Source of the DNA: a virus
Virus record (IMG/VR): IMGVR_UViG_3300025684_000025
Location: 1 to 41,563 of that record
Strand: one strand, 5' to 3'
DNA length: 41,563 nt
The notes beneath the pieces are model-generated. The model ran no database searches. It worked only from the letters and a program-made list of their open reading frames with translations, and was not told where the DNA came from. Position numbers and translations under genes: made by a program. This document shows positions 2,962-35,844 of this stretch, piece after piece (position 1 is the first letter of the stretch; each line of letters begins with the position of its first letter).

Positions 2962-2970
2962 ATAAATATC
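2962..2970 (-). promoter_or_regulatory. Late-promoter motif GATATTTAT
   Basis: Exact GATATTTAT on the minus strand, 16 bases before the ATG of the 457-residue structural gene. One of thirteen sites of the same motif in this window. Confidence 0.6.
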
Positions 2971-2976
2971 CAGTAA

Positions 2977-4497
2977 TTAGTTAATTCTATTTTTCTGTGA
3001 AAGGATATTCTGTTTAAAGTTTTGGAACTTATCTTCTAACTTCGCTTTGATGGCTGGTTGTACCACACCAGACTCAGCAGGATTGTGAACGTGACTAACC
3101 ATAAAAAGATACATCACATCTAAAAGTTCCTGAAGTTCTTCACCTCTAACTAATGAATAGGTATTTGGATAAATACTCGTTAGTAGTTCGTCCTGAGTAA
3201 TCTTATAATTCGATACCTTCGAGAAATCAATCCCCTCAGAATTTTCAGGTACATTATTACCGTAAGCAATTAGAAAGTTATTGTCAGAGACTGAGATGAT
3301 ATTTTTAGATGGTTTATCATCTTTTATAATATTTGTTGGTCTAATATATGTTACTTTCTTAGGAGTTTCGTCTTCATCTAAAGAATATACTAACCCATAA
3401 GATTTTCTACTTTTAATTCTAATCTTATCTATAAATCCTGAATAATCAGTATTGGTGATTAAATCATTATATTGTTGTCTAACAGGTCTAAGATATAATG
3501 GATATATTGAGGTCATTTTTGCCGGGTCTTGATTTGAAGGGTGTTTAATAAACCCATCTAATGCGTCAACACCTGACTTACCAGTATTTATAATTCCTTT
3601 AATTGCGTGTCTTATGGACATCCCTAAATCATCTAAAGATGGTTCAAATATTTGTTTGGTATATAATAACTCTTTTTCGTCCAAAACGGTTAAGTTATTA
3701 AAGTATATTGTTTCTGTTTGTCCGTCTTTTTTCAATGGACGATAAACATATATAGTTCCCGTATAATTACCATTTACTGGCGTTAGACTTTCAATGTAGT
3801 ATTCAATTAAAACTTCTAAGTGAGTAAATCTAGTAGTTTCTACAGGTTGTTCGTCACCCTCTTTATATGTGAATGTTTTATCAAACTTAGAAACTTGTAA
3901 AATTGCTGGATTATCATCTCTAATGGGTTCATTTAATTTGGTTGATATTTCATCATCAACTTTACCAGCACGAATAACCACGGCATTATCAGACCATATA
4001 ACATCAGAATTAACTCTACTTGAAATTGCAAAGTCATCAACTTTAGGAATTGCTCCGTTATATTTTTCTTTTACGTACTTACCATTTTCTTTTACTAAGT
4101 CCTTACCTTTTTTGTATTGTAATCCTTCTCTAGATTGTGATAACTTATGTTCGGCACTCGTACTATCATTGAAACCTCTATCTATAACCGATGAAGGAAT
4201 ATAAAACCCATCTACGAAATCTCGGTCAGGGTTAGAAAATATAATATTCACCATGTCTCCCACTTTTGGAATCATAGTAAATAGGTTAGGAATTAACGGT
4301 CTAAATAAGAAAGGATTGACAGAAATATCCCATTTGTCTTTACCTTCTAAATCTACATTACCGTCATATTCTGTTGAGAATTTTTTTGTGGATATAGCAA
4401 AACTTTGTGGGTCAACAATAATACGACCCAGTCTTAATGGGTCTAAATTATCGGTAACAACACCTGTGTAGATTATTCTTTTATCTTCACTATTCAT
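2977..4497 (-). CDS. Baseplate hub/spike protein, gp5-like OB-fold
   Basis: 506 residues (T4 gp5 has 575). The N-terminus reads IIYTGVVTDNLDPLRLGRIIV, the classic opening of the gp5/VgrG OB-fold (GxV.dN.DP...GR), followed by a PKVGDMVNIIF strand typical of the same barrel. Near the C-terminus is the segment VSHVHNPAESGVV, like the SH-H/P motif of phage baseplate OB-fold proteins. I see no lysozyme domain and no obvious long beta-helix repeat, unlike T4 gp5. The protein would sit at the centre of the baseplate under the tail tube. The gene overlaps the next upstream small gene by 8 bases, and a large probable baseplate gene follows it upstream, consistent with one assembly module. Confidence 0.72.
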   Translation of the reverse strand: MNSEDKRIIYTGVVTDNLDPLRLGRIIVDPQSFAISTKKFSTEYDGNVDLEGKDKWDISVNPFLFRPLIPNLFTMIPKVGDMVNIIFSNPDRDFVDGFYIPSSVIDRGFNDSTSAEHKLSQSREGLQYKKGKDLVKENGKYVKEKYNGAIPKVDDFAISSRVNSDVIWSDNAVVIRAGKVDDEISTKLNEPIRDDNPAILQVSKFDKTFTYKEGDEQPVETTRFTHLEVLIEYYIESLTPVNGNYTGTIYVYRPLKKDGQTETIYFNNLTVLDEKELLYTKQIFEPSLDDLGMSIRHAIKGIINTGKSGVDALDGFIKHPSNQDPAKMTSIYPLYLRPVRQQYNDLITNTDYSGFIDKIRIKSRKSYGLVYSLDEDETPKKVTYIRPTNIIKDDKPSKNIISVSDNNFLIAYGNNVPENSEGIDFSKVSNYKITQDELLTSIYPNTYSLVRGEELQELLDVMYLFMVSHVHNPAESGVVQPAIKAKLEDKFQNFKQNILSQKNRIN

Positions 4498-4699
4498 TTA
4501 CTCCGTTTTGTCTCTCTTTTATTTCTTCAGATATCAGATAGTAATATTTTTCAACATTATCTAAGTGATGAGACAATTGGAGTATTAGCGTTTTAGTATC
4601 TTCAAACTCTTTCGTAAGTAAAGTCGCACCTTCCATAAGGTCTTTATTACTTTTTTTGTTCGCTGATTCCGCTAATTCAATTAAATCTGTGATATCCAT
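4490..4699 (-). CDS. Small coiled-coil protein, unknown
   Basis: 69 residues, nearly all predicted helix with heptad-like spacing (LILQLSHHLDNVEKYYYLISEEI). It overlaps the gp5-like gene by 8 bases and shares a TAATG stop/start with the 611-residue gene upstream, so all three are probably translated as a unit. I do not recognise it. The tight link to the gp5-like gene suggests an assembly factor or small baseplate component. Confidence 0.65.
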   Translation of the reverse strand: MDITDLIELAESANKKSNKDLMEGATLLTKEFEDTKTLILQLSHHLDNVEKYYYLISEEIKERQNGVNE

Positions 4700-6534
4700 T
4701 AGTCGAATGTGGTTAAAATAACTCCTTTACCCGTTACAAAAGGTGTGACTACGGGACCTAATGGGTGAACTCCTGTTGCTGGTTGCGATACAAATTGTAC
4801 CGCCCCATTCTCAGTCATTTCTTTCATTAAACCGTCAACCATCGCCTTATGTTGTAATACATGTTTATTTGGTGAACCGTCAGGTAAATCACCTACATTA
4901 TACCCTATCTTTTGTAGGTTTTCGATACCATTAGTGAATGAACGAGTTGAACTCGCACCTTCTCTAATATATGCACCATACAGTAGTGGAAAGGGTACAC
5001 CTAAAGGTATACCTGTTCTTAGGTTAAGTAAAGACATTAATGCTCGTATGATACCCGCACAAGAACTTAAGTCATTTTTCATAAATTTATTTAAGGCAGT
5101 TATTAATGCCAATATTAATGCATATCGGGACTTAAATTGTTGTGTTGCGATTTTCTTTATAATTTGAGTAATTAATTGAGTTAAAACCTTTTTAATTTCT
5201 TTAAATAATTCTTCCTTATACATATCGAAAACTCTCTTTGATATTCTCGTCATAAAGGTCTTATTATTATTTACAAAATCAGTTACGTTTTTTGCCTCAT
5301 CGGTTACTGAATCGATACCACTCTTTAATGCAATGAACGGTAATATCGTTTTTGGTCCCATAACCTTAGATATGATTGTCTTAGGTATTTGTTTAAAGAT
5401 ATCCGTATTAAAGTTTAAATTGACGGTAGGAATATCAAATCCACTATCGTCAACGTGAGAACCTAAATTATTTAAAAAGTTATCCACCACTTCATTATCA
5501 GATATACTATCAGAGTCTAAATCTAACAACATATCTATAATTAAGTCAGGATTCATTTCCGCTTCGTAATTACCACAATCAGCTAAACGATATAGTTTTT
5601 TAACTTTAAGATTAAAGTTTTCTTCTATATATCTCGTATCACTATCGTCAAAATCGAAACTTAATTCTTCGTCTTTACTAGAGACTGTATCAATCAAACC
5701 TTCCTTTATCAAAGAATCTGATTCGTAGAAATCACTACATAACGCAGCAATCGCTTCAGTAAACTTATTTAATTCTGCAAATGAATTAACCCTTTTTGTT
5801 GAAATATCGACAGAAATCATACCGAATAACATATCCATTAAATCGGTCATTAACTCCTTAGTATTGAATAATTCAAAAGAAGAGTAATAGTTAGAAACAA
5901 AGTCACTAACCGTTATATCTTTAAATTTCAACGTATATTCTTCATCAAACTGGTCATACCCTAAGTCAAATAGAGGTAATCCATTATGTGATACATAGGT
6001 CTCTTCCGCTCCGTTAATCCTTTCAAAAATAAACTTATTTGTTGAAATTGGGTAAGAATTGTCTGATGTAGATTTTTTCTCATACATAAGTCTACCCTCA
6101 GTAGAAGATGGAGATACCTTTAAGATATCGAACATATCGATTCCTTCGGCAGAGAATTTCGCTTCAATACCGTTTAAACTAAGGTCGGTTTCACAATTTA
6201 AAGACCTGATTAACTCCTCGATAACTATTTTAGTAATTCTCGGAGCATCGTTCGATATCTTTTTTATGATTTTTTTAATTAGGGATTTAGTTGCATCGGG
6301 ACCACCACCTGTAGATTGTATTAAAGTGTCAAGTAATTTACTAATAAAATCTAAATTCGCACTTTTACCTGGTCCATCACCTAATAATTGTTTAGTTAAT
6401 TCATTACTGTTTAAATATGGTGATGAATTAATATTAAGTGATAGGTCAGCGTTATCTGATAGTGATTTAAGAGCAGTCTGTAATGTGTCAATCTTACTAC
6501 TTAAATTTTTAGTTTTACTATTTATATCTGACAT
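4699..6534 (-). CDS. Putative baseplate-associated structural protein
   Basis: 611 residues, family not recognised. The N-terminal third is helical (heptads near residues 1-50 and 80-115), followed by an acidic middle and a hydrophobic stretch near residues 480-520 (SRYALILALITALNKF and ALMSLLNL) that could be a buried helix hairpin rather than a true membrane anchor. The C-terminus (PLGPVVTPFVTGKG) looks like a beta tail. It is coupled by TAATG to genes on both sides and lies next to the gp5-like gene. A baseplate or tail role is inferred only from that position. Confidence 0.55.
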   Translation of the reverse strand: MSDINSKTKNLSSKIDTLQTALKSLSDNADLSLNINSSPYLNSNELTKQLLGDGPGKSANLDFISKLLDTLIQSTGGGPDATKSLIKKIIKKISNDAPRITKIVIEELIRSLNCETDLSLNGIEAKFSAEGIDMFDILKVSPSSTEGRLMYEKKSTSDNSYPISTNKFIFERINGAEETYVSHNGLPLFDLGYDQFDEEYTLKFKDITVSDFVSNYYSSFELFNTKELMTDLMDMLFGMISVDISTKRVNSFAELNKFTEAIAALCSDFYESDSLIKEGLIDTVSSKDEELSFDFDDSDTRYIEENFNLKVKKLYRLADCGNYEAEMNPDLIIDMLLDLDSDSISDNEVVDNFLNNLGSHVDDSGFDIPTVNLNFNTDIFKQIPKTIISKVMGPKTILPFIALKSGIDSVTDEAKNVTDFVNNNKTFMTRISKRVFDMYKEELFKEIKKVLTQLITQIIKKIATQQFKSRYALILALITALNKFMKNDLSSCAGIIRALMSLLNLRTGIPLGVPFPLLYGAYIREGASSTRSFTNGIENLQKIGYNVGDLPDGSPNKHVLQHKAMVDGLMKEMTENGAVQFVSQPATGVHPLGPVVTPFVTGKGVILTTFD

Positions 6535-6911
6535 TACATTTCATAATTGGTAGAATCAGAATCGTCAGAATTGACATCATTCATCATCTCCTTAAGCATT
6601 TCTTTATCCTCATCAGTTAAAACACCTGAAACATCACCACCTGATGCGTCACTTGCTTTTTGAATGACTGTTTGTTGTAACTTAGCTAATGATAGTTTCT
6701 TTTCTAAAACACTATCGATTATCTTTTGTTGTTCTTTAATTATAGGACCTAATAGAGTTAAATCTTCAGGTGCTTTCATGAACGATAACATCTTGTTTTG
6801 AATTCTAATCGCAGTATTTCTTTGTTCTACAGATTCATTGTAAATTTCCTGTAGTAACGCCATTAAACTTTTTTGATTAAAAGTTATCTCTTTTTTTGTT
6901 GTTCTTCCCAT
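6534..6911 (-). CDS. Small helical protein next to gp55; small terminase is a possibility
   Basis: 125 residues. Residues 14-90 form a long helical hairpin (LMALLQEIYNESVEQRN.. and IIKEQQKIIDSVLEKKLSLAKL), and the tail is acidic (DEDKEMLKEMMNDVNSDDSD). Length, central hairpin and flexible acidic end recall T4 small terminase gp16, but no diagnostic residue is visible. The neighbour gp55 raises the other option of a late co-activator such as gp33. Both are guesses. The gene has a late-type motif 6 bases before its ATG and is coupled (TAATG) to the 611-residue gene after it. Confidence 0.6.
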   Translation of the reverse strand: MGRTTKKEITFNQKSLMALLQEIYNESVEQRNTAIRIQNKMLSFMKAPEDLTLLGPIIKEQQKIIDSVLEKKLSLAKLQQTVIQKASDASGGDVSGVLTDEDKEMLKEMMNDVNSDDSDSTNYEM

Positions 6912-6917
6912 AATTAA

Positions 6918-6926
6918 ATAAATAGA
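6918..6926 (-). promoter_or_regulatory. Late-promoter motif variant TCTATTTAT
   Basis: TCTATTTAT on the minus strand ends 6 bases before the ATG of the 125-residue gene and abuts the stop codon of gene 55. A transcript started from it would have almost no leader. Confidence 0.45.
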
Positions 6927-7628
6927 TTAAACTTTAATTACTTTTAACATCATCTCTTCATATATCTTACGATACTTCTTCATTGATGTTCTAATTTCTT
7001 TAGTCGTCATCGATGTCATATCACGTAATGAAAGTAGTATTAAGTTCTTATTGAACTTCTTTCCGTCACCACCTTGGAATATATGTTCGTAGTTAGTAAA
7101 CACTTCTATTAAAGCATACCCTAACTTTTCTTCATTCTTATTTAAGTTAGTTACCTCAATAAAGTCTTCTAACTCCCTTACTAAACGAGTGACTACATCT
7201 TCGTAGTCCAATGAGTCATTATGTAAGTGATAGGTCATATCCTCTCTATTCTCTACTGACGTAGAAATGTCTTCATATGAAATCTTACGATTCTTTTCTT
7301 TATTATCTTTCTGTATTGACCCCATAAGATAATTCTTACATATAGTACCGAAGTAAGAGTATGCCTTAGTTCCTTTAGCTGGGTCAAATTTGTCGACTTT
7401 AGTAATCAAAAAAGATGTCACATCACTGTGTAGACCATCAAAGTGATAGTCTGCACGGTAAAGTTTGTATCTTCTGATAATACTATCGACCATTTTACTT
7501 AACGGTTCCCTCAGTTGTTCTCTGAAAATCACATTTCTTTCTTCAGGGTCGTCAGTTGCTAAGTAGTCTACTACCGCTTGTTCTTGCTCTGGTCCAAAGT
7601 AATTTTTATTCTTTCTAGGTCTTGGCAT
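6927..7628 (-). CDS. 55: Late sigma factor, T4 gp55-like
   Basis: 233 residues. Residues 63-108 carry the region-2 pattern of sigma-70-type factors as kept in T4 gp55: FDGLHSDVTSFLITKVDKF, then DPAKGTKAYSYFGTICKNYLMGSIQ (the 'F...G..F..Y....ark.ii..ir' core-binding and -10-reading helix). In T4, gp55 replaces sigma-70 on host RNA polymerase and directs late transcription from a -10-only promoter with the sliding clamp. The C-terminal part (residues 160-233) is helical and may hold the polymerase flap or clamp contacts. It sits between a virion-type gene and the glycosyltransferase operon. Its presence makes the GATATTTAT motif found before structural genes a natural target. Confidence 0.88.
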   Translation of the reverse strand: MPRPRKNKNYFGPEQEQAVVDYLATDDPEERNVIFREQLREPLSKMVDSIIRRYKLYRADYHFDGLHSDVTSFLITKVDKFDPAKGTKAYSYFGTICKNYLMGSIQKDNKEKNRKISYEDISTSVENREDMTYHLHNDSLDYEDVVTRLVRELEDFIEVTNLNKNEEKLGYALIEVFTNYEHIFQGGDGKKFNKNLILLSLRDMTSMTTKEIRTSMKKYRKIYEEMMLKVIKV

Positions 7629-12657: not shown

Positions 12658-13881
12658 TTATTTATTAATTAATTGTTTATAAAATTTACTTCTTTTCTTA
12701 GTCGTTGTTTTTAAGTGGTACTTCTCTTTAACTGTTTCGTAAAGATTCTCTCCCATCTTTTTAATCCAATCAGGATTCTGTATTAACCTATTAAGGTGAG
12801 TGAACCATTGTTTATGGTTTTTTGATGGAGACACTAATAATCCATCACCACCTTCAACAAACTCACCGTTCTTAATTGCGTTAGTAAGAATGGACGAATA
12901 TACGCCAATATCTTGAGCAATTATAGCTTTTTTGTAAAAACCTGCCTCAATAATTTTAAGTTCTGATTTTGTTAGGTTAAAGTCGTTCTTTTCTAAAGGT
13001 GCTAACGCGATATCAAATTTTGTGTAACCTAATGCGTATTTGTTAACAGGTTCCGTCCATACTCTTCTATATGGTTGATGTCTATCATCGAACGGAATGT
13101 CTCTATTGAACTTAAGTAAATGTTCTTTGTAATCACCACTAACCGTATTTAAGTTATTGGTTAATACGTTCTCATAGAAGAACCAAGCAGTTTCCCACGG
13201 TCTAATAGGTCTTTTAATTGCCTTACCTTGCTTTATCTCAGTAATCGTTCCTCGGGTATCATAACCACATAAAACAGTCTGATACTTACCCTTATGTTTT
13301 GATTCTAATCGGTTAACTGTTCCCTCTAATAATTTAACGTCAATAGCGTGTGATGAACCACCTAACCATCCAATACGTACTTTATCAGATTCTTCAGTTT
13401 CTCCTTTAAATTGAGACTCTTCAGGGTCAATAGAGTTCTCGATTACGATAACATTCTTAATCCCTTTTTCTTTAATCTTATCCGCTAAAAGTTCTGTAGT
13501 TGTTGTGATATAGTCACAAGCTCTTGCGATTGATAGGTTATGTTTTGCATAACCACTTTCTTTAAATTGTTTTTGAAGAGGATGTCCTACGGGTAGAATC
13601 CAATAGTCATCGATATCCATAACGACTTTAGTTCCCCCATCTTGAATTTCCTTAATCTTATCTAAGGTCCAACTCAAAGGTCTTCCGTTAATAATTTCTT
13701 TGTGAAAGTGAACGATATGGTAATCACTAAAGTTTACTCCGTCAATATTATCAAAGAGAATATCAACAAAGAACTCATCCTTATAATGATTATTTAAGTA
13801 AACGTGAGGGTCAACAGACCTGTACTTTCCTACACCACTCGTATCCGATGGTAGTACTAATACCTTAATTTTATCTGACAT
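12658..13881 (-). CDS. Glycosyltransferase, GT-B fold (third in window)
   Basis: 407 residues. N-terminal Rossmann part with VLVLPSDTSGVGKYRSVDPHVYL and VVMDIDDYWILP, a central TTTELLADKIKEKGIKNVIVIENSIDP (the linker 'l...n.v..ipNgid' of GT4 enzymes), then VRIGWLGGSSHAIDVKLLEG starting the donor domain and FDIALAPLEKNDFNLTKSELKIIEAGFYKKAIIAQDIG, where the E..K/E pair contacts the sugar nucleotide. It could modify virion proteins or host glycans. It begins a minus-strand transcription segment; the 54-base gap to the next upstream gene holds no clear promoter that I can see. Confidence 0.83.
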   Translation of the reverse strand: MSDKIKVLVLPSDTSGVGKYRSVDPHVYLNNHYKDEFFVDILFDNIDGVNFSDYHIVHFHKEIINGRPLSWTLDKIKEIQDGGTKVVMDIDDYWILPVGHPLQKQFKESGYAKHNLSIARACDYITTTTELLADKIKEKGIKNVIVIENSIDPEESQFKGETEESDKVRIGWLGGSSHAIDVKLLEGTVNRLESKHKGKYQTVLCGYDTRGTITEIKQGKAIKRPIRPWETAWFFYENVLTNNLNTVSGDYKEHLLKFNRDIPFDDRHQPYRRVWTEPVNKYALGYTKFDIALAPLEKNDFNLTKSELKIIEAGFYKKAIIAQDIGVYSSILTNAIKNGEFVEGGDGLLVSPSKNHKQWFTHLNRLIQNPDWIKKMGENLYETVKEKYHLKTTTKKRSKFYKQLINK

Positions 13882-13935
13882 ATATTGATAGTTATTTACC
13901 TTAAAAGTAAATTAACACATTCAATAAGTCAAAAA

Positions 13936-15352: not shown

Positions 15353-15799
15353 TTATAAATATCTGTTCATCATTTTTAACGACCTTTTTATTTCTTCCGA
15401 TAGTCTACTCATATCTACTGACCCCGCCTCACCATTTTTTTCGTGTGACTTTCTATATGGGTTTTTCTTACCTGGTGTTAGTTCAGTCGCTCTTTGTGCT
15501 GACTTCTTTTGTTGTTCGATTTCCTTTCTTGCCTGTGTAAGGGTTTCTTGTACCCACTTAAACATAACATCACCACCATTTAGTTTGTAAGAATCTGAAT
15601 CTGTTTCACTATTAATAGTTTTAAAGTCGTATAATAATCTTTTCAGTTGTTGATAAGTCATTACTTTTTCATCAACTAATCTACGGAGCCTTTTCATACC
15701 AACCCCACTAACGTGACTCATCGCCTTTAGTGTTTGGTTTAGGTGGTCTAAAATCTTAGTTGGTATATTAAACTTCTTATCTTTTAACTGACTATTCAT
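15353..15799 (-). CDS. Conserved hypothetical phage protein
   Basis: 148 residues. The layout 'FNIPTKILDHLNQTLKAM..VSGVGMKRLRRLVDEKVMTYQQLKRLLYDF' then 'YKLNGGDVMFKWVQETLTQAR' recalls a family I have seen in phages of Bacteroidota (an N-terminal 'i....l.hL....' , a 'G.kR...l...g..tY.qlKR' hinge and 'YkLNGGd.m..Wv...L'); its function is unknown to me. The C-terminus is basic and probably disordered. It is coupled by TAATG to the 242-residue gene upstream. Confidence 0.68.
   Translation of the reverse strand: MNSQLKDKKFNIPTKILDHLNQTLKAMSHVSGVGMKRLRRLVDEKVMTYQQLKRLLYDFKTINSETDSDSYKLNGGDVMFKWVQETLTQARKEIEQQKKSAQRATELTPGKKNPYRKSHEKNGEAGSVDMSRLSEEIKRSLKMMNRYL
15355..15363 (-). promoter_or_regulatory. 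Late-promoter motif GATATTTAT
   Basis: Exact GATATTTAT on the minus strand, 15 bases before the ATG of the Asp/Gly-rich gene; it overlaps the stop codon of the upstream gene. Confidence 0.6.
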
Positions 15800-16543: not shown

Positions 16544-16552
16544 ATAAATATC
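16544..16552 (-). promoter_or_regulatory. Late-promoter motif GATATTTAT (minus half of a divergent pair)
   Basis: Exact match on the minus strand, 19 bases before the preferred start at 16524. Together with the plus-strand copy 13 bases away it forms a divergent late promoter in a 57-base gap. Confidence 0.62.
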
Positions 16553-16565
16553 AAACAAATTTAAA

Positions 16566-16574
16566 GATATTTAT
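16566..16574 (+). promoter_or_regulatory. Late-promoter motif GATATTTAT (plus half of a divergent pair)
   Basis: Exact match, ending 7 bases before the ATG at 16582. If it acts as a -10 element the transcript would begin at or next to the start codon. Confidence 0.62.
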
Positions 16575-17622: not shown

Positions 17623-17626
17623 AATT

Positions 17627-19627: not shown

Positions 19628-19972
19628 ATGGAACATTATATTAAACAGAATTCGACAGAACCATTACTGGTTGTTACAATATATAACGATGAAAAATACT
19701 TTAAGGAGCCCTTTCAAGATAGAATTGAAAACTCCGTAATATCTTTCACAATGCAAGACGATAAGGGTGCGTTTAAAATATTAAACGCCCCTTGTTATTT
19801 AATTAAAAATGGGGAAGATTACGACATCGTATATAAGTGGACTATGAAGGATACTAAGACTAAAGGGGTATTCAATGGTAACTTCACAATACAGTTCTTA
19901 GGAGACGATTACGATGTGATGTCTCAAACTATTTTACCAATCAAGGAAGATTTATTAATTAATATTATTTGA
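19628..19972 (+). CDS. BppU N-terminal-like (Ig-like) tail protein
   Basis: 114 residues. The pattern IKQNSTEPLLVVTIYNDEKYFKEPFQDRIENSVISFTMQDDKG, then YDIVYKWTMKDTKTKGVFNGNFTIQF follows the BppU N-terminal/DUF2479 domain ('i..gdt.p.l.v.l.......p.dltg..v.f.m.d..g', 'v.Y.wt..DT...G.y.geF.v.f'), which anchors receptor-binding proteins to the baseplate of other phages. Here it is a stand-alone domain immediately downstream of the Thr-rich protein, so it may connect that appendage to the virion. The polymerase promoter starts inside its last codons. Confidence 0.65.
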   Translation: MEHYIKQNSTEPLLVVTIYNDEKYFKEPFQDRIENSVISFTMQDDKGAFKILNAPCYLIKNGEDYDIVYKWTMKDTKTKGVFNGNFTIQFLGDDYDVMSQTILPIKEDLLINII

Positions 19973-19998
19973 TTTTAATCTAAATTTTATTATTTTTG
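19968..19998 (+). promoter_or_regulatory. Host-type (Bacteroidota) promoter for DNA polymerase
   Basis: TTTG (19968-19971), a 19-base spacer, then TATTTTTG (19991-19998) matches the Bacteroidota housekeeping consensus TTTG-N19-TANNTTTG at every fixed base. Transcription should start near 20005, leaving a leader of about 65 bases before the polymerase ATG. Confidence 0.82.
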
Positions 19999-24110: not shown

Positions 24111-24119
24111 ATAAATATC
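24111..24119 (-). promoter_or_regulatory. Late-promoter motif GATATTTAT
   Basis: Exact match on the minus strand, 14 bases before the ATG of the gp13-like gene. Confidence 0.62.
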
Positions 24120-24991: not shown

Positions 24992-25000
24992 ATAAATACT
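24992..25000 (-). promoter_or_regulatory. Late-promoter motif variant AGTATTTAT
   Basis: AGTATTTAT on the minus strand, 14 bases before the ATG of the putative nuclease: the same gap as for the gp13-like gene. Confidence 0.5.
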
Positions 25001-25042: not shown

Positions 25043-25073
25043 TTTGTAGTAATGAAGATTTATTGTATATTTG
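25043..25073 (+). promoter_or_regulatory. Host-type (Bacteroidota) promoter for zinc-finger protein
   Basis: TTTG (25043-25046), 19 bases, TATATTTG (25066-25073): a second exact TTTG-N19-TANNTTTG. The predicted start near 25080 leaves a leader of only about 20 bases and rules out the apparent upstream start at 25063, which lies inside the promoter. Confidence 0.82.
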
Positions 25074-25098: not shown

Positions 25099-25860
25099 AT
25101 GACATCAGCAACAGAATTTATATCGGAATACAACGGAAGCAACTCATTTCTTAACTCAGTTAAAAGTGGTTACAGTAAGTATGGTCGTCTTACACCAGCT
25201 CAATCTGCGGCGGTTATCAAAATAGTTAAGTCAATGAAAGAAAAAGTTAAGTCTATGGCTCCGATTGAAGTTCGTAAGAATATCGAACAGATTATGGAGT
25301 ACAAAGGAAATAATAAGTTCATCAAAGACTTACAGGAAAAATACGAAAAGTATGGTAAGTTAACTGAGAAGCAAATCGATGCAGGTCTTAAGTCTATTAA
25401 TCGTAAACCACAGAACACGGTTAAAGAACCGATGAAGCTACCTAAAAACCAAACAATCAGAATCCGTCAGTACATTGCAAAACAAATTAAAGAGGATAAG
25501 GATTTAAACTTCTTACCAATTCAGATTGAGGTTTCTCACCTAATTGGAGCGTCTAGAAAGGCACTACACCTAAGAGGTAAAATGTCTACTGAAGTAACTA
25601 CTGAGTGTCGTTGTTGTGGTAGAGGATTGAAAGACGAGATGTCAATCGCAACGGGAATGGGTAAAACGTGTTCTAAAAATATGGGTGTTGAATACGCAAA
25701 GAATCAATCTGATGTTGATAGATTTAAAGAAGACCTACAGAAAAAAGTTGATGAGGTTGGTGTATTTGACTTTTGGGTTCCTAAGTCTCAGGTTTCAGAA
25801 TGGGATGGGGTGTATAAGTTAGCAGTTAACAGTCAGTTTCAAACTTACGTTAACTCTTAA
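25099..25860 (+). CDS. Zinc-finger protein with two YGxLTxxQ modules
   Basis: 253 residues from the ATG at 25099, chosen because the promoter covers the earlier start. Residues 7-43 and 65-101 are two copies of one small helical module (Y.G.N.F....K..Y.KYG.LT..Q). Residues 138-240 form a second unit, LPIQIEVSHLIGASRKALHLRG ... DFWVPKSQVSEW, with a treble-clef-like insertion carrying Cys170, Cys172, Cys173 and Cys191 (CRCCGRGL, then MGKTC), close to the 'C..CgR.L....S...G.G..C' pattern of DUF6011-type proteins. The SNF2 helicase nearby has the same two N-terminal units without the zinc finger. It has its own host-type promoter inside a block of minus-strand late genes. A nucleic-acid-binding role is inferred. 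Its end overlaps the converging gene by 11 bases. Confidence 0.7.
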   Translation: MTSATEFISEYNGSNSFLNSVKSGYSKYGRLTPAQSAAVIKIVKSMKEKVKSMAPIEVRKNIEQIMEYKGNNKFIKDLQEKYEKYGKLTEKQIDAGLKSINRKPQNTVKEPMKLPKNQTIRIRQYIAKQIKEDKDLNFLPIQIEVSHLIGASRKALHLRGKMSTEVTTECRCCGRGLKDEMSIATGMGKTCSKNMGVEYAKNQSDVDRFKEDLQKKVDEVGVFDFWVPKSQVSEWDGVYKLAVNSQFQTYVNS

Positions 25861-26491
25861 TAGTGATGATTATTTGGTCACCTTCTTTTTTCACTTTGAA
25901 ATTAGGGGGTGATAAATTTTCATAGTACTCTTTATAATAGTCGACTTTTTCATCTTCGTCCATTGTCGTATCTTCCTCTTCCGATTCGTTAAGTGATGAT
26001 TCTATTTTTTTGATGGTAATGTCAGTATCCACAATTTCACTATCCCAAACCTTTTCTTTGACTAGTTCTAACTCATCGTGGTATGTGCCCTCACCCAATA
26101 ATCTATCTTCAACGGAATTACTACTATATCCTTCAACTTCACCACGATATAGGTATGTTCCCGATTCATTGTAACCCGCATTTAACTCTACCTCAAATGT
26201 AAAAAGTTTAGGGTCCTTAATAAAAGTACTATCGGTATGGTTTACTGTTGGTGACTGTAGGAAAGACGCTTCAATCTTATCTCTAATTTCGTGGTACCTG
26301 TCAAATCCAACACTATTGGTGTTAATCCCAAACATCTTTAACGTTTTAGTGATTACCTCAAAATGTTTAGAGTTGTCACCATCATATTTAGAAATCCCCA
26401 TACTACTAAAAACTTTAGATAGGTAAGGAATGACTTTGTCGTATTGAAGGTCATTGATTTCAGATAATATTTTACGTCTAAGACTATTCAT
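25850..26491 (-). CDS. Hypothetical protein with KILSE leader
   Basis: 213 residues, unrecognised. It opens MNSLRRKILSE, an 11-residue basic leader ending in L-S-E, then a helical segment, a beta-rich middle (LFTFEVELNAGYNESGTYLYRGEVEGYSS), an acidic low-complexity stretch (SEEEDTTMDEDEKVD, near residues 168-182) and a final strand unit FKVKKEGDQIIITIKS. A late-type motif ends 5 bases before the ATG. Its stop codon lies inside the converging zinc-finger gene. Possible internal head protein, by the leader only. Confidence 0.57.
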   Translation of the reverse strand: MNSLRRKILSEINDLQYDKVIPYLSKVFSSMGISKYDGDNSKHFEVITKTLKMFGINTNSVGFDRYHEIRDKIEASFLQSPTVNHTDSTFIKDPKLFTFEVELNAGYNESGTYLYRGEVEGYSSNSVEDRLLGEGTYHDELELVKEKVWDSEIVDTDITIKKIESSLNESEEEDTTMDEDEKVDYYKEYYENLSPPNFKVKKEGDQIIITIKS

Positions 26492-26496: not shown

Positions 26497-26505
26497 ATAA
26501 ATAGT
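26497..26505 (-). promoter_or_regulatory. Late-promoter motif variant ACTATTTAT
   Basis: ACTATTTAT on the minus strand, 5 bases before the ATG at 26491, abutting the stop codon of the SNF2 helicase gene. Confidence 0.48.
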
Positions 26506-28301: not shown

Positions 28302-28310
28302 GATATTTAT
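28302..28310 (+). promoter_or_regulatory. Late-promoter motif GATATTTAT
   Basis: Exact match ending only 4 bases before the ATG at 28315. As a -10 element it would put the first transcribed base at the start codon. Confidence 0.62.
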
Positions 28311-28314: not shown

Positions 28315-28827
28315 ATGAGTAAAAAGAAACAACCAATAAATAGAATGGGTAAGTTCTTTGGTTACGATGATTTTAATTTAGAATTATCGATGGGCGAAGA
28401 GTGGTTACACGGAGATATGAATTTCACTTTAGTTTTATTTAGAGTGGACAGAAGTAAGAGTGTTGATGACGTATATGGTGAATCGGGTAAGGGTGAGATT
28501 AAATTCTTTTCCCCTGTTGAGTTCAAAGGGTATGTTCAGATTGCAGGACCTGATAACAAAACCTATTCTAATGGTTTAGGTCGTTATTTGGAGCCAGGTA
28601 ATATGACCGTTTCTTTATATAAACATCATATGGAAGAGAAAGACATTGAAATTTCCTATGGTGATTATATTGGTTACTATGAAACTGAAGATAGAGTAAG
28701 ATATTATGAGGTCGCAAATGATGGTAAAGTAACATCAGATAATAAACACACATACGGAGGATTTAAGGCGTTCTATAGAACAATACTTTGTACACCTGTT
28801 AGTGAAGACCAATTTAAAGGAATGTAA
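28315..28827 (+). CDS. Neck protein, gp14-like
   Basis: 170 residues. The order of features follows T4 gp14: FTLVLFRVDRSKSVDDVYGES (T4 'ECYYVPREYVSPDLIFGED'), FFSPVEFKGYVQI, a short GLGRYL loop, MTVSLYKHHMEEKDIEISYGDYIGYYETEDRVRYYEV (T4 'VTLSINPGLFKHQ...PKEGDLIYFPMDNSLFEI'). It is shorter than T4 gp14 (256). gp14 binds gp13 to form the neck ring that receives the tail. It is followed 2 bases later by the gp15-like gene, and then by the sheath gene, the T4 order. Confidence 0.62.
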   Translation: MSKKKQPINRMGKFFGYDDFNLELSMGEEWLHGDMNFTLVLFRVDRSKSVDDVYGESGKGEIKFFSPVEFKGYVQIAGPDNKTYSNGLGRYLEPGNMTVSLYKHHMEEKDIEISYGDYIGYYETEDRVRYYEVANDGKVTSDNKHTYGGFKAFYRTILCTPVSEDQFKGM

Positions 28828-28829: not shown

Positions 28830-30095
28830 ATGCCATTACCAAAGAAAGTAAAAAAGGATATTAACGTTTATCCGTCGAAAACATTATTAGAAAGGAGAGA
28901 GCAGATGTTGGAAGAAATTACCAACCAAGACACTAATCTACCTGAATCTGTAATGCACGAAGACTTAGATTTAGGAATGTTGGAGTTTGTAAAAGAACAC
29001 CTACGTTTCAAAAGTGACGGTAAGTACGTTAATTTTATTGAAAAGATACTTTCTTTACAAAGATGGGCTGAGTTATCAAATACCTTTGACTTCATCAATA
29101 AAGATGAAAAAATGCAACTACCTTTTATTACTGTAGTTCGTAAACCTGAGGTCCCTTATGGTTCTAATCCGGCACTACAATATACAATTCCCGATAGACA
29201 AAGTTTCTTTTATAGAAGGATATCTACATGGGATGGTAATAGATTAGGTGCTGATGTATATAAAATACCTCAACCAATACCTGTCGACATTTCTTTTGAT
29301 GTTGTTGTGGTTTGTAATCGTATGAGAGAACTAAATGGTTTTAATACAAAAGTGATGCAGAAATTCTCATCTAGACAATCATACACAGTCGTTAAAGGTC
29401 ACTATATCCCTTTGGTTTTAGAATCGATATCTGACCAATCACAAATAGACTCAATCGAGGGTAGAAGGTTCTATCAACAGGTTTACTCTTTTCAAATGCA
29501 AGGATTCTTAATTGACGATGAAGAATTTGAAATAGTACCAGCGATTAATCGAGAGTTAATTATGATGGAATTAGGTGCTGACGTTAAGGGTAATTCATCG
29601 GTAAACACATTTAAAACTATTAAACATAATGTGGAGATAAATGCTGAGGTATTTACGGGTGATTCAGTAACCACCACATTTAAGGTTCAGAGAAAAGTCA
29701 ATAACTTATTCTTTGTCGAGTTAAACGGAATTATTTTGGTTCAGGGAGAGGACTACTTCCACAATGGGAATAGTTCTAATATTATATTCTCAACCCCACC
29801 ACCATTAGATAGTAAAATACGTATTTCATATTCTTTTGATAATAATTTTGTTGATATTGATGGGTCACGTCTATCTTTAAGTAAGGATATTATAGAATTT
29901 GAAGATGGTGTTTATGAGTATGATTTATCTAAGCCTATCCACGACATTATATTAGTTGATGTTGGAGGTATGATACAATTAGAGAATGATTATTATACTT
30001 TTAATATTGATAATAAAAAATTGACGGTTAATGAAATACCACCATTAAGTACCCCACCAGTTAAGATGAGTGTGGTATATCTAACAAAATCTTAA
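28830..30095 (+). CDS. 15: Tail completion protein, gp15-like, with extra C-terminal domains
   Basis: 421 residues against 272 in T4. Residues 90-235 follow T4 gp15: QLPFITVVRKPEVPYG, then PIPVDISFDVVVVCNRMRELNGFNTKVMQKFSSRQSY.., then RRFYQQVYSFQMQGFLIDDEE (T4 'SPIKMIYELSIFTRYEDDMFQIVEQILPYFQPHF' and 'RRRIEWSLTFEVNGWMYPP'). gp15 caps the tail tube and sheath and docks to the neck. The added C-terminus (residues 270-421) contains two similar beta units, each with FFVELNGIILVQGEDYF / IILVDVGGMIQLENDYYTF, the repeat seen in many phage structural proteins. Directly upstream of gene 18, with the late promoter of that gene after it. Confidence 0.68.
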   Translation: MPLPKKVKKDINVYPSKTLLERREQMLEEITNQDTNLPESVMHEDLDLGMLEFVKEHLRFKSDGKYVNFIEKILSLQRWAELSNTFDFINKDEKMQLPFITVVRKPEVPYGSNPALQYTIPDRQSFFYRRISTWDGNRLGADVYKIPQPIPVDISFDVVVVCNRMRELNGFNTKVMQKFSSRQSYTVVKGHYIPLVLESISDQSQIDSIEGRRFYQQVYSFQMQGFLIDDEEFEIVPAINRELIMMELGADVKGNSSVNTFKTIKHNVEINAEVFTGDSVTTTFKVQRKVNNLFFVELNGIILVQGEDYFHNGNSSNIIFSTPPPLDSKIRISYSFDNNFVDIDGSRLSLSKDIIEFEDGVYEYDLSKPIHDIILVDVGGMIQLENDYYTFNIDNKKLTVNEIPPLSTPPVKMSVVYLTKS

Positions 30096-30250
30096 AGTTC
30101 CCCGTAGATATCTGTCTTAGGTTTACAGTTTTCTTCTATTAGTTTTTCTATGTATTTAAACATTTTTAGACCTTCACTTTTGCAATGGTTTTTTAGCATT
30201 GAATGGTGATGTTCACTAATCTTTAAGTTTTTGACTATTTCCTTGTCCAT
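30092..30250 (-). CDS. Small ribbon-helix-helix-like protein
   Basis: 52 residues, minus strand, ATG at 30250, stop at 30092-30094, overlapping the converging gp15-like stop by 4 bases. Sequence pattern: a strand-like VKNLKISEHHH, then helix MLKNHCKSEGLKMFKYIEKLIEENC. This matches the short Arc/ribbon-helix-helix-like proteins of Bacteroidota phages ('v.i....h..LK.yCk..G.kM.kfiE.LI'), which usually bind DNA as dimers. A TATATTTAT motif lies 42 bases before the start. It fills what would otherwise be a 290-base gap before gene 18. Confidence 0.72.
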   Translation of the reverse strand: MDKEIVKNLKISEHHHSMLKNHCKSEGLKMFKYIEKLIEENCKPKTDIYGEL

Positions 30251-30292
30251 TTGTCGTTGTATGAAAAAAGTATGAAAAAAAACATACTACCA

Positions 30293-30301
30293 ATAAATAT
30301 A
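30293..30301 (-). promoter_or_regulatory. Late-promoter motif variant TATATTTAT
   Basis: On the minus strand, 42 bases before the small 52-residue gene; paired divergently with the gene 18 motif 33 bases away. Confidence 0.45.
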
Positions 30302-30334: not shown

Positions 30335-30343
30335 AATATTTAT
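30335..30343 (+). promoter_or_regulatory. Late-promoter motif AATATTTAT of gene 18
   Basis: AATATTTAT, 42 bases before the sheath start codon. The leader between is almost pure A and T. Confidence 0.58.
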
Positions 30344-30385: not shown

Positions 30386-33184
30386 ATGGCAAATTCTAAC
30401 AGAGTTTTCGTCTCACCAGGGGTTTATACATCAGAAAAAGATTTGAGTTTTGTATCTCAAAGCGTAGGTGTATCTACTTTAGGGTTAGTAGGTGAAACAA
30501 AAAAAGGTCCAGCATTCGAACCTGTATTAGTATCAGGTTATAATGAATTTAAAACATTATTTGGAGGACAATCACCTGAAAAATTAGGTGAAACTTTAAA
30601 ATACCAATTACCGTATTACGCTAAATCATTCTTAAACCAATCATCTCAGTTATTCGTAACTAGAGTGTTAGGATATTCAGGATATAACGCAGGTGATGCA
30701 CATGCAATCAAAACTATCGGTTCAGTTGATAAATTCAAAACGTCTAGCACTCAAGAAGATATCTTTGATGTTGAGTTAGCTGGTGGGTTGTTAGACTTAT
30801 CGTCTGTAACATCAGCACAACAAGCATTTTTATCAACAGTACTTGAAGCTAATGACGGTTCAATGTCTTCAGTTGAAGACTTCTTCAATGGAGCTATCAA
30901 TACTACAGAACCTATAGTTGTAGGTCCTTATGATACTACGTTCGATTGGACAACATTAGGAGTAACAACTGTTGGTCTTACAATGTATAATATGAGTGAT
31001 TCATTATGGGCTTTACAATCTTGTGGTGATTCATTAAATGACTCAGGATTGTCTTTCTATGGTATTAAGTGGGATGACGCAGGTACTGACAAATTTAAAG
31101 TGATAGTACAAAGAATTGGTGTTCAAAGACACGAGGAGTCTCACGGTAAGACTATCGCAATTTTACGTTCAAGAGCTGAATATACAGGTGATACATTAAA
31201 TCATAAATTAACATCACCAATCACAATGACTAGCTCAACTGTTGAGACTAACAGTATGGGTGATTTCAAATTATCTATGAGTTCAGGTACTCAATCTTTC
31301 TCATATACGTGTAACTTAAGTTCATCGTCTAAAAAGTTTATCACTAAGGTAATTGGTGAGTCTGCTTTTGATAAGAACGCTGACTTATACCCAATATACG
31401 TTGATAAAGTATTTGATAGTTATTTAACTTGGTTATCATTAACAGGTAAAGTTCAAGGTCTTTCATTAGATATTGAGTCAGTACAAGACGGTGACGACTT
31501 CCAAGAATCATATACTTCATCTGTTACACCATATGTGGTATCAGAAGTAAGAGGTGGATTTGTTTCGGACTTATTTAGATTCATCACAATTTCTGATGGT
31601 GATTCATCGGCGAAAGAAGTAAAAATATCGATTGTTAATATTAACATCGAAAAACAAGAATTCGATATCATCGTAAGAGACTTCTTCGATACGGATGCAA
31701 ATCCTATCGTATTAGAGAAATTCTCAAGATGTTCAATGAACCCTGAAGTACCAGGATACGTAGCACGTAAAGTAGGTACATCAGATGGTGAGTACGAATT
31801 AAAATCAAGATACGTTATATTAGAATTAGGTTTAGAAGCACCTTCAGATTCTGTACCAGCAGGTTTCAGAGGTTATGAAGTTAAAGACTACGGTTTTGCT
31901 ACCTCATCTAATCACGATATTAATTATAAAACAGAATATTATAAGGCAGGTGACCAAATTGGTGTTGATGTTAACGGTAACCCAATTCAGGTTAATGCTG
32001 ATAAAATAAGAAAAGTATTTATGGGTGTTTCTGACACAGTTGGATTTGACCCATCATTCTTTGAATTCTCAGGAAAATCAATCTCAGGTGAAACAACTAA
32101 AGGTTTCCACTTATCGTCACAAGCTGACTCTACTGAGTTTGATACTACACCTGAAAATTTCGAAATTAGTGAAGGTAACTTTGAAAAGGCATCGGCATGT
32201 AAATTTACATTAGCACCTGTAGGTGGATTTGATGGTTTTGATATCTTCAGAAAAGAAAGAACAAATACTGACCAATATATGATTGGTAAAAATTCATACA
32301 TTAACTCAGGATTTGATAGTAATATCGGTGAGTCAGATTACTACGCTTTCTTAGATGGTATTATGACATTCAGAAATCCTGAAGCGATTGACATTAACTT
32401 ATTCTCAACACCTGGTATCAACTTCTTCGACCACTCATCGTTAGTAGGTGAAGCTATTGATATGGTAGAGACAGAAAGAGCGGATTCATTATACATTATT
32501 GATTCACCAAACAGAGATAGTGTTGACGAGATAGTAGGAGACTTAGAAGATATAGGTTTTGATTCAAACTACTCAGCAACTTACTGGCCGTGGATTCAAG
32601 TTAGAGATACTGAAAATTCAGTACAGGTATATGTATCACCAACAGGTGAAGTTTTAAGAAACATCGCATTAACTGATAACATTGCTTTCCCATGGTTCGC
32701 GTCAGCGGGTTACCAAAGAGGTTTAGTAAATTCAATCAAAGCTAAAAAGAAATTAACTTTAGATGAGAGAGATGCGTTATACGTGAATAGAATTAACCCA
32801 ATCGCAACATTTGCGGATGTAGGTACAATCATTTTCGGTAACAAAACACTACAGGTTAGAGAGTCAGCGTTAGATAGAATTAACGTAAGAAGATTATTAC
32901 TACAAGCGAGAAAATTAATTTCAAACGTAGCGGTAAGATTGTTATTCGAACAAAACGATGATGTTGTAAGAAATGAATTCTTAAGTTTAGTAAACCCAAT
33001 TTTAGAGAATATCAAAAAAGAAAGAGGTTTAACAGAATTTAAAGTTGAGGTTTCTTCATCACCTGAAGATATGGACAGAAATCAATTGTCAGGTAAGATT
33101 TATATCAAACCAACAAGAGCACTTGAATTTATCGATATTGAGTTCTTAGTTACACCAACAGGAGCATCTTTCGAGAACATTTAA
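30386..33184 (+). CDS. 18: Tail sheath protein gp18
   Basis: 932 residues, much longer than T4 gp18 (659). N-terminus: VFVSPGVYTSEKDLSFVSQSVGVSTLGLVGETKKGPAFEPVLV, the standard sheath opening, followed by a 'FKTLFGG' motif. The C-terminal third carries the conserved polymerisation domain: YWPWIQVRDTENSVQVYVSPTGEV, PWFASAGYQRGLVNSI, DERDALYVNRINPIATFADVGTIIFGNKTLQ, and ends LEFIDIEFLVTPTGASFENI, the tail that links to the next subunit. The extra length lies in the middle (about residues 130-560), which points outward in known sheaths and here probably forms added surface domains. It contracts around the tube to drive it through the host envelope. Own late motif and own terminator. Confidence 0.95.
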   Translation: MANSNRVFVSPGVYTSEKDLSFVSQSVGVSTLGLVGETKKGPAFEPVLVSGYNEFKTLFGGQSPEKLGETLKYQLPYYAKSFLNQSSQLFVTRVLGYSGYNAGDAHAIKTIGSVDKFKTSSTQEDIFDVELAGGLLDLSSVTSAQQAFLSTVLEANDGSMSSVEDFFNGAINTTEPIVVGPYDTTFDWTTLGVTTVGLTMYNMSDSLWALQSCGDSLNDSGLSFYGIKWDDAGTDKFKVIVQRIGVQRHEESHGKTIAILRSRAEYTGDTLNHKLTSPITMTSSTVETNSMGDFKLSMSSGTQSFSYTCNLSSSSKKFITKVIGESAFDKNADLYPIYVDKVFDSYLTWLSLTGKVQGLSLDIESVQDGDDFQESYTSSVTPYVVSEVRGGFVSDLFRFITISDGDSSAKEVKISIVNINIEKQEFDIIVRDFFDTDANPIVLEKFSRCSMNPEVPGYVARKVGTSDGEYELKSRYVILELGLEAPSDSVPAGFRGYEVKDYGFATSSNHDINYKTEYYKAGDQIGVDVNGNPIQVNADKIRKVFMGVSDTVGFDPSFFEFSGKSISGETTKGFHLSSQADSTEFDTTPENFEISEGNFEKASACKFTLAPVGGFDGFDIFRKERTNTDQYMIGKNSYINSGFDSNIGESDYYAFLDGIMTFRNPEAIDINLFSTPGINFFDHSSLVGEAIDMVETERADSLYIIDSPNRDSVDEIVGDLEDIGFDSNYSATYWPWIQVRDTENSVQVYVSPTGEVLRNIALTDNIAFPWFASAGYQRGLVNSIKAKKKLTLDERDALYVNRINPIATFADVGTIIFGNKTLQVRESALDRINVRRLLLQARKLISNVAVRLLFEQNDDVVRNEFLSLVNPILENIKKERGLTEFKVEVSSSPEDMDRNQLSGKIYIKPTRALEFIDIEFLVTPTGASFENI

Positions 33185-34246: not shown

Positions 34247-34255
34247 GATATTTAT
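34247..34255 (+). promoter_or_regulatory. Late-promoter motif GATATTTAT of gene 19
   Basis: Exact match, 34 bases before the tube-protein start codon, downstream of the hexamer array. Confidence 0.62.
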
Positions 34256-34289
34256 AAGTAAATAAAAAAATTAATTAAAAGAAATACAA

Positions 34290-34778
34290 ATGGCTGATTT
34301 ATTAATGAAAATGCCCGTTCCTTACGAACCAAAGAAAAAGAACAGGTTTATTTTGAGATTTCCATCTTCGTTAGGAATTAACGAGTGGTATGTAAGTACA
34401 ACATCTAGACCCTCAGCTAATATAGGGTCAGTAGAGATTCCCTTTTTAAATACTTCTACATTCGTAGCGGGTAGATTCAACTGGAATACCTTAAACGTGA
34501 CGTTCAAAGACCCAATCGGTCCATCAGCGGCACAAGCACTTATGGAGTGGTTTAGACTACACGCAGAGTCTGTTACAGGTAGAATGGGTTACGCTGCAGG
34601 GTATAAGAAAGACATTGAGTTAGATATGTTAGACCCAACAGGTGTTGTGGTAGAAAAATGGATTATCCAAGGAACGTTCATTACAGATTTAAACTTTAAT
34701 GACTTATCATACTCTGATGAAGGTTTAGCTGATATCTCAGTTACACTAAGACCTGACAGATGTATTTTAGTATACTAA
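34290..34778 (+). CDS. 19: Tail tube protein gp19
   Basis: 162 residues (T4 gp19 has 163). Typical tube pattern: MPVPYEPKKKNRFILRFPSSLGINEWYVSTTSRPS, VEIPFLNTSTFVAGRFNWNTLNVTFKDPIGPSAAQALMEWFRLHAESVTGRMGYAAGYKKDIELDMLDPTG, and a C-terminal LNFNDLSYSDEGLADISVTLRPDRC. Hexameric rings of this protein stack to make the rigid tube inside the sheath through which DNA passes. It has its own late motif and terminator, matching the need for high, independent expression. Confidence 0.95.
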   Translation: MADLLMKMPVPYEPKKKNRFILRFPSSLGINEWYVSTTSRPSANIGSVEIPFLNTSTFVAGRFNWNTLNVTFKDPIGPSAAQALMEWFRLHAESVTGRMGYAAGYKKDIELDMLDPTGVVVEKWIIQGTFITDLNFNDLSYSDEGLADISVTLRPDRCILVY

Positions 34779-34817
34779 ATAAATAGCCAAATAGATTTAC
34801 CCAAATATGGGATAAAG

Positions 34818-34846: not shown

Positions 34847-34896
34847 ATGCTTTACATTTAGGTTATGGGATTTATATTTAAAACAAAAGAATTAGT

Positions 34897-35643
34897 ATGA
34901 ATGACGATAACTATAGATTAAACACCGCATTTGATGTAATACCATTACCATCTAAAGGGGTATTTTATAATGATGGGAGAGACTCACTTAAAGTTTCTTA
35001 CCTAACTGCGTCTGATGAAAACATACTAACATCTCAAAACTTAATACAAAAAGGTACTGTAATTGATGAATTATTAAAGGCGAAAATCTTAGATAAAGAC
35101 ATTAGTGTTGATGACCTACACGACTCTGATAAAGAGGCGGTATTATTATTCTTAAGAAACACTGCGTATGGTTCAATGATTAATTTGGTGGTTACTGACC
35201 CTGATACTAATCAGAAGGTTGAAATTGAATATGACTTACAGAACGTGAAGTTTAAAGAATTCAATTTAGAGTCTGATAGTGAGGGATTATTTTCATATAC
35301 TACTGAGACTAATCAAGTTATTAAGTTTAGATTCCTTACACCTAAGGATGAGGAAGAATTAGCAAAAATTGATGAGGTCTATAAAGATATGGTGGTTAAA
35401 CCGACTGTAACTAAAAGATTAGAGAAAATGATTGTTGAGGTTGACGGAGAGAGAGACCCAATGAAGTTATCGCACTTTATTCAATTTTTACCTATCAAGG
35501 AATCACAACGGTTCAGGAAGTTTGTTTCTGAAAATACGCCGGGTCTTGATAAGGAGGTAGAGTTAATTCTACCTTCAGGGAAAAAAATACAGACGTTTTT
35601 TGGACTTGACACAGAGTTTTTTCGTCCTTTCTACGGACTATAA
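34897..35643 (+). CDS. 26: Baseplate hub subunit, gp26-like
   Basis: 248 residues (T4 gp26 has 208). The first half follows the gp26/tail-chaperone pattern: VIPLPSKGVFYNDGRDSLKVSYLTASDENILTSQNLIQKGTVIDELL, then DKDISVDDLHDSDKEAVLLFLRNTAYGSMINLVVT (phages of this group read 'LPSkG..Y....i.i.pmta.eE.iLt...li..g.vid.l' and 'D...ll.yLR...YG'). The zinc-binding 'CPxC' of some relatives is replaced by TDPDTN. It needs the following frame for the gp51-like part, which overlaps its last 43 bases. No late motif of the strict form is seen; GATTTATATTTA 23 bases before the ATG is the closest thing. Confidence 0.68.
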   Translation: MNDDNYRLNTAFDVIPLPSKGVFYNDGRDSLKVSYLTASDENILTSQNLIQKGTVIDELLKAKILDKDISVDDLHDSDKEAVLLFLRNTAYGSMINLVVTDPDTNQKVEIEYDLQNVKFKEFNLESDSEGLFSYTTETNQVIKFRFLTPKDEEELAKIDEVYKDMVVKPTVTKRLEKMIVEVDGERDPMKLSHFIQFLPIKESQRFRKFVSENTPGLDKEVELILPSGKKIQTFFGLDTEFFRPFYGL

Positions 35644-35812
35644 GTCCACACTACTTCAAGAAATTTATTATTTATCTAAGTTCCTACACTTTACGTATAT
35701 GGACTATATGAGTATGCCTGTGTTTGAACGTAAGTTTTTACTGAATATGTTGGTTGAAGAAAAAGAAAAGGAAAACAACGAATGGGAAAAGAGTAAAAAC
35801 AAAAACGACTAA
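35600..35812 (+). CDS. gp51-like baseplate hub assembly protein, overlapping frame
   Basis: Up to 70 codons in the +1 frame relative to the gp26-like gene. The conserved-looking part is LLQEIYYLSKFLHFTYMDYMSMPVFERKFLLNMLVEEKEK, which recalls the short protein encoded just after gp26 in T4-like phages ('eIyyL.y...f...dv..MPv..R.fyl..L'), the gp51 position. Start is uncertain: only TTG at 35600 or 35606 could include the conserved region, while the first in-frame ATG (35699) would cut it in half. A +1 shift at the gp26-like stop (CTA TAA G, 35638-35644) would give a fusion that continues KSTLLQEIYYL. Both options are open. Confidence 0.65.
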   Translation: MDLTQSFFVLSTDYKSTLLQEIYYLSKFLHFTYMDYMSMPVFERKFLLNMLVEEKEKENNEWEKSKNKND

Positions 35813-35835
35813 TACCATTTAAAAATCCAACTTAA

Positions 35836-35844
35836 GATATTTAT
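35836..35844 (+). promoter_or_regulatory. Late-promoter motif GATATTTAT of the tape measure gene
   Basis: Exact match, 44 bases before the ATG of the 629-residue gene. Confidence 0.6.

Follow-up and report, generated by a model that had tools for sequence, protein, structure and literature searches.

What does the heptamer TATTTAT do upstream of thirteen genes in the virus record IMGVR_UViG_3300025684_000025? The stretch analyzed here (the window) is the entire 41,563-base virus record, probably a fragment, and encodes a T4-like myovirus in which profile searches recognized the tail sheath (PHROG_23, E 1.5e-59), the tail tube (PHROG_4542, E 2.6e-26), the baseplate hub (PHROG_150, E 3.5e-9), and the head-tail adaptor (PHROG_211, E 2e-10). 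A first-pass annotation had taken the motif for a divergent late promoter of a Bacteroidota phage, and, with the phage being T4-like, this is the best-supported explanation. The signal is also found in the isolated Flavobacterium phage immuto (vB_FspM_immuto, Immutovirus, NC_055915.1, 160 kb), in two metagenomic lineages, and in 67 further loci. We consider it quite probable that TATTTAT is a -10-only late promoter used by a phage-encoded gp55-like sigma factor with the host RNA polymerase, and we infer the link between motif and sigma factor from their association.

A DNA-level search of 50,697 phage records returned no close relative of the structural half of the window, and related contigs were retrieved with the window sigma and sheath proteins. 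Those read nearly whole were immuto, the 66-kb contig G004 (76% nucleotide identity to the window over the aligned part), and G001, G002, and G003, which are one species (~73% identity, likewise over the aligned part).

All thirteen sites lie where the annotation had placed them, sense-oriented and 4-44 nucleotides (nt) upstream of a start codon. The candidate late promoters are the following.

2962..2970, minus strand: GATATTTAT, 16 nt before gene 1572-2945; kept in G001/G003
6918..6926, minus strand: TCTATTTAT, 6 nt before gene 6534-6911, directly past the sigma gene; kept in G004 and G001
15355..15363, minus strand: GATATTTAT, 15 nt before gene 14953-15339; kept in G004 and G001
16544..16552, minus strand: GATATTTAT, 19 nt before gene 15799-16524, divergent from 16566; kept in G004 and G001
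16566..16574, plus strand: GATATTTAT, 7 nt before gene 16582-17622; kept in G004 and G001
24111..24119, minus strand: GATATTTAT, 14 nt before the head-tail adaptor gene 22987-24096; kept in G004 and G001
24992..25000, minus strand: AGTATTTAT, 14 nt before gene 24126-24977; kept in G004 and G001
26497..26505, minus strand: ACTATTTAT, 5 nt before gene 25850-26491; kept in G001, degenerate (GTATTTACT) in G004
28302..28310, plus strand: GATATTTAT, 4 nt before gene 28315-28827; probable leaderless start
30293..30301, minus strand: TATATTTAT, 42 nt before gene 30092-30250, divergent from 30335; heptamer kept in G004 and G001
30335..30343, plus strand: AATATTTAT, 42 nt before the tail sheath gene 30386-33184; kept in G004, G001, L022, and immuto
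34247..34255, plus strand: GATATTTAT, 34 nt before the tail tube gene 34290-34778; kept in G004, G001, L022, immuto, and Mel-JY01
35836..35844, plus strand: GATATTTAT, 44 nt before gene 35889-37778, which from its position would encode the tape measure; kept in G004 and G001

For the site at 16544, the start was taken as the ATG at 16524 (gene 15799-16524) and not as the mechanical TTG start of the open reading frame at 16554. Both divergent pairs (16544/16566 and 30293/30335) are real and conserved in two related lineages. The eight exact copies of GATATTTAT reported earlier are correct as a count of start-proximal copies, but the window total is 10. The ninth (16595-16603, minus strand) lies within coding sequence 16582, 70 nt upstream of the 16524 start, and the tenth (37653-37661, plus strand) within coding sequence 35889; we claim neither as a promoter, the former sitting in codons of gene 16582 and the latter being unconserved in two relatives. 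The heptamer itself occurs 30 times on both strands of the window, 17 of these outside the thirteen.

The shuffled control proposed along with the motif bears it out. Sense TATTTAT was found within 50 nt upstream of 12 of the 41 curated genes (the thirteenth site falls just beyond this limit), versus a mean of 1.63 and a maximum of 6 in dinucleotide shuffles of the same sequences, and none of 1000 rounds reached 12. GATATTTAT was counted 7 times upstream, with 0.07 expected from the shuffles. The reverse complement ATAAATA stood at chance level in these upstream sequences (3 versus 2.83 expected), indicating that the orientation of TATTTAT matters, and sense TATAAATA, the T4 late promoter, was also at chance in the window (1 versus 0.93); antisense TATAAATA was ruled out as an explanation by the same shuffles. 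TATTTAT ranks first of all heptamers in the window, whether against coding sequence or against shuffles, and is the top start-proximal heptamer in G001, G002, G003, G004, and G009. Among the octamers of immuto, TATTTATA ranks first (24 upstream versus 3 in coding sequence), and in phage Mel-JY01 (PP395634.1) TATTTAT comes first in the structural 50 kb, while other k-mers outrank it genome-wide. The k-mer analysis recovered TATAAATA from the T4 control.

A search with the immuto sigma factor gave at least 600 matching stretches; 80 loci were kept among the matches listed, 67 of them non-redundant. Pooled, these 67 sigma-bearing loci again had TATTTAT as their top start-proximal heptamer, with 163 genes bearing it versus 8.6 expected and at least one in each locus, although the pooled p-value overstates independence because the loci are related and centered on the same genes. 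Motif discovery by expectation maximization on the window alone degenerated into a weak A/T pattern assigned to every gene, and all counts are therefore based on exact k-mers. Our search of the open literature, which did not cover subscription papers or preprints, found no prior description of the motif.

A compositional artefact has to be considered, given that intergenic DNA is rich in A/T and that certain other A/T k-mers rise as well. Such an artefact is refuted, practically beyond doubt, by the shuffles, by the unenriched reverse complement, and by retention at orthologous starts, where TATTTAT exceeds other A/T-only heptamers both in G004 [9/10 versus 101/294 (34%), p 6e-4] and in G001 [12/12 versus 85/305 (28%), p 4e-7]. 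The site before gene 24126 is kept in G004/G001 despite 46-52% protein identity, and TATTTAT also precedes sheath, tube, or hub genes in L022, immuto, or Mel-JY01. The baseplate hub gene of the window itself (34897-35643) has GGATTTATATTTA and no exact heptamer upstream; its immuto and Mel-JY01 orthologs have TATTTAT.

The conserved core of the element is [A/C]TATTTAT[A/T]. Among 49 sites of the window clade, A precedes the heptamer in 73% and G stands one base further upstream in 51%, while 157 sites of immuto-like loci have C (62%) or A (31%) before the heptamer; the base after it is A or T. The leading GA is thus specific to the window's clade, and these frequencies make GATATTTAT that clade's flavor of the core. 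Upstream of the heptamer, no information and no -33/-35 element was found at the sites of the window, G001, G004, immuto, and Mel-JY01. The annotation was right that the motif is not the T4 sequence, but the partial likeness to the complement of TATAAATA that it pointed out is incidental; aligned in the same direction, TATTTATA and T4 TATAAATA differ only at positions 4 and 5. With the T4 consensus unmatched, the element is best regarded as a variant of the T4 late promoter and not as a plain member.

The genes served by the motif support a late assignment, which rests on gene function. In immuto it precedes terminase, portal, sheath, tube, hub, and tape measure genes, and a site was found before 9 of the 24 virion, packaging, or lysis genes versus 2 of the 46 replication or metabolic genes (p 7e-4). 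Early genes of the window, the glycosyltransferase operon among them, have putative promoters of a different kind.

25044..25073, plus strand: early host sigma-A-type promoter TTG-n19-TATATTTG, upstream of the DUF6011 gene at 25099; conserved in G004 and G001
19969..19998, plus strand: early host sigma-A-type promoter TTG-n19-TATTTTTG, upstream of the DNA polymerase gene at 20071; equivalent sites in G004 and G001
13902..13932, minus strand: early host sigma-A-type promoter TTG-n20-TACTTTTA, upstream of the glycosyltransferase gene 12658-13881; conserved in both G004 and G001

These match the TAnnTTTG box mapped in F. psychrophilum (PMC9723704), and their conservation is evidence for a Bacteroidota host. 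The early class of immuto likewise has TTG (GTTG/CTTG) at -33 ahead of TATATTTAGGTAT in 20/20 sites.

Might a host sigma factor then also read the late sites, either as a sigma-A -7 box variant devoid of the -33 element or through an alternative sigma, with a phage activator setting the late timing? GATATTTAT can be laid on TAnnTTTG as xA-TA-TTT-A-T, the early promoters and the late element of immuto have TATATTTA in common, and the 4-nt gap to ATG seen at some sites suits the sigma-A register better than the T4 register. However, the late sites have A instead of G at the last box position, and TTG is found in the -33 zone of 0/12 late sites of the window versus all the early sites of immuto, so that the late sites depart from the Bacteroidota sigma-A pattern. 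The alternative-sigma motifs of F. psychrophilum are of the sigma-54 type, TAnnTTGY, and CGT (PMC9723704), none of which is TATTTAT, and the phages encode a sigma factor of their own. We regard a host sigma as an unlikely reader, with roughly one chance in eight.

Two side observations concern the early promoters. Immuto holds, mostly at 60-76 kb, an array of near-identical early promoters, GTTG-n19-TATATTTAGGTATCAATAATTAAAAC, serving ~25-30 genes that are mostly small and of unknown function. Mel-JY01 is recorded with the host Microcystis elabens, yet has ~20 intergenic TTG-n-TAnnTTTG promoters of the Bacteroidota type; this host record may be mistaken, or the phage may infect a member of a Bacteroidota-related group that uses Shine-Dalgarno sequences.

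The phage-encoded sigma factor is the presumed reader of TATTTAT, and the claim that the window encodes one holds.

6927..7628, minus strand: gp55-like late sigma factor, 233 amino acids (aa); PHROG_234, E 9.6e-6

Pfam Sigma70_r2 matches it at E 5e-4, under the family cut-off. PHROG_234 also matches in G001, G003, and G004; its match is weak in immuto (E 0.008) and lacking in Mel-JY01, both of which have a homolog of the window sigma by tblastn. In immuto this is gp118, annotated as a hypothetical protein, with 36% identity to the window sigma over the aligned part. T4 gp55 flips A-12, A-9, and A-8 into pockets formed by Y97, N13/H95, and T99, respectively (PMC7892883). In an ungapped stretch of the profile alignment, T4 Y97 falls on Y92, which is invariant in 42 relatives, while in the same alignment (weak, E 0.02) H95 falls on Y90 and T99 on G94. 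As a hypothesis, this residue pattern would fit an element that retains the A of the first TA and has altered central bases.

The sigma proteins are ~50 residues longer than gp55 (185 aa), and Pfam detected no region 4 in 42 family members. An AlphaFold model of the sigma (mean predicted local distance difference test score 70, predicted template modeling score 0.44) has helices at 142-232 and is too weak to settle whether these C-terminal helices are region 4; they may be that, or they may take the place of gp33. Foldseek with this model listed mainly sigma factors (best E 0.046). The sigma gene of the window has no sense TATTTAT site before its start. The small conserved protein of unknown function encoded directly after it (6534-6911, minus strand) has its own late site, and the gene after the immuto sigma (78906-79256) is likewise preceded by GATATTTAT.

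Several observations weigh against a late promoter read by a gp55-like sigma. The kinship of the sigma to gp55 is weak by sequence (PDB gp55, E 0.23; hhalign, E 0.02), and the T4-type sliding clamp (PF02916) was above cut-off only in T4, and not in immuto or Mel-JY01. The huge phage LR756508, with a more distant sigma, showed no TATTTAT enrichment, which marks a boundary of the motif's range. In immuto, the contrast between late and early genes is modest when the comparison is restricted to genes that have 25 nt or more of room upstream (9/13 versus 2/9, p 0.04), and its two replication or metabolic genes with a site are those of GroES and PhoH. The statement that no sense site precedes the genes of DNA polymerase, PhoH, dUTPase, glycosyltransferases, and helicase is therefore true of the window, but for PhoH it does not extend to immuto.

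The distance between heptamer and start codon carries further information. In 94 gene families it is bimodal: 16 families form a narrow peak at 4-5 nt, a second and wider maximum lies at 11-20 nt, and a single family has a gap of exactly 4 nt in 55/59 members. At the plus-strand gap-4 sites counted, which belong mostly to this family, the ATG is preceded directly by T in 56/56. Gene 28315 of the window has the 4-nt gap and a conserved N-terminus in all three lineages, and its first ATG is the likelier start because the second Met of its product is Leu in G001. If the mRNA starts at the ATG of a gap-4 gene, the heptamer lies at about -11 to -5, whereas keeping exactly to the register of T4 (-13 to -6) would cost the mRNA part of its start codon. 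Judging from this spacing, the late genes starting exactly 4-5 nt past the motif probably have leaderless mRNAs, a class new here.

A motif that precedes start codons in phages such as the window and immuto, neither of which shows Shine-Dalgarno enrichment, might instead act in translation initiation, as a ribosome or mRNA element. This we consider improbable: the gap before the start codon is bimodal and ranges between 4 and >40 nt, the motif is absent before most genes, and each gene of a divergent pair has its own copy. Moreover, Mel-JY01, which is enriched in Shine-Dalgarno sequences, has most of its sites farther off, 28-44 nt from the start. Leader length thus tracks the mode of translation, as expected of a promoter and not of a ribosome site. 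It is just as improbable that the motif is an operator or another binding site of a phage regulator: a start-proximal motif need not be a -10 element, but the 4-5 nt peak and the family with a nearly fixed gap fit one, as do the resemblance to the T4 sequence and the absence of further conserved elements upstream.

Under the preferred reading, the host RNA polymerase core with the phage gp55-like sigma would recognize [A/C]TATTTAT[A/T] as a -10-only element, and transcription would begin a few bases downstream of it. Structural and other late genes, including both divergent pairs, would be turned on in this way, presumably late, whereas early genes would use host-type TTG-n18-20-TAnnTTTG promoters. 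Many late mRNAs would have short leaders, and the subset with the fixed 4-5 nt gap would probably begin at or beside the ATG. The -10-reading surface of the sigma may have diverged jointly with the element, from T4 TATAAATA to TATTTATA.

The T4 late promoter was reported to be highly similar across the hosts examined (PMC2988020). We tentatively propose, at slightly less than even odds, that a widespread, mostly uncultured lineage of Bacteroidota T4-like phages moved its whole late regulon to TATTTAT by co-divergence of sigma pocket and promoter, part of it becoming leaderless, which would suit hosts that do not use Shine-Dalgarno sequences. A two-base change common to an isolated Flavobacterium phage and hundreds of metagenomic relatives is a natural test of DNA reading by a region-2-only sigma. 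TATTTAT also allows late genes to be called from sequence across a large group of uncultured phages, and, thanks to the fixed 4-nt gap, leaderless translation of late genes can be tested directly.

Two neighboring features were noted in passing. At 30259-30287, a direct plus inverted repeat, GTATGAAAAAAGTATGAAAAAAAACATAC, lies before gene 30092-30250, whose 52-aa product has a weak match to a RepB regulator; the repeat is largely conserved in G004 and G001 and may be an autoregulatory operator. The protein encoded at 17606-19603 has several long threonine runs (PTTTTTTT) separating repeated domains and is probably a fiber or surface protein.

Compared with known systems, the element is most like the T4 late promoter read by gp55 (PMC2988020; PMC7892883): virion genes in both orientations are served by a single -10-like element that has no -35 partner, a small sigma homolog of the region-2 kind is encoded by the phage, and in direct alignment the first T-A-T and the last A-T-A match. 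Unlike in T4, the two central A's of TATAAATA are T's in TATTTATA, the start point is probably closer to the element, the sigma exceeds gp55 by ~50 aa and has additional C-terminal helices, Tyr and Gly/Gln stand opposite the pocket residues H95 and T99 in the alignment, and no T4-type clamp was recognized (immuto and Mel-JY01 searched). Immuto has the homologous sigma gp118 and the same motif at structural genes, and differs in the base preceding the heptamer, mostly A or C with no leading G, and in its early promoter array, GTTG-n19-TATATTTAGGTAT. The Bacteroidota sigma-A promoter (TAnnTTTG at -12 to -5, TTG at -33) also has an A/T-rich box in the -10 region and is present before early genes of the same phages, whereas the late sites have neither the -33 element nor the final G. 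Finally, the late consensus of Aeromonas phage Aeh1, another member of the T4 family, departs from TATAAATA as well, but Aeh1 alters positions -13/-12 (PMC2988020), whereas the TATTTAT element alters the center.

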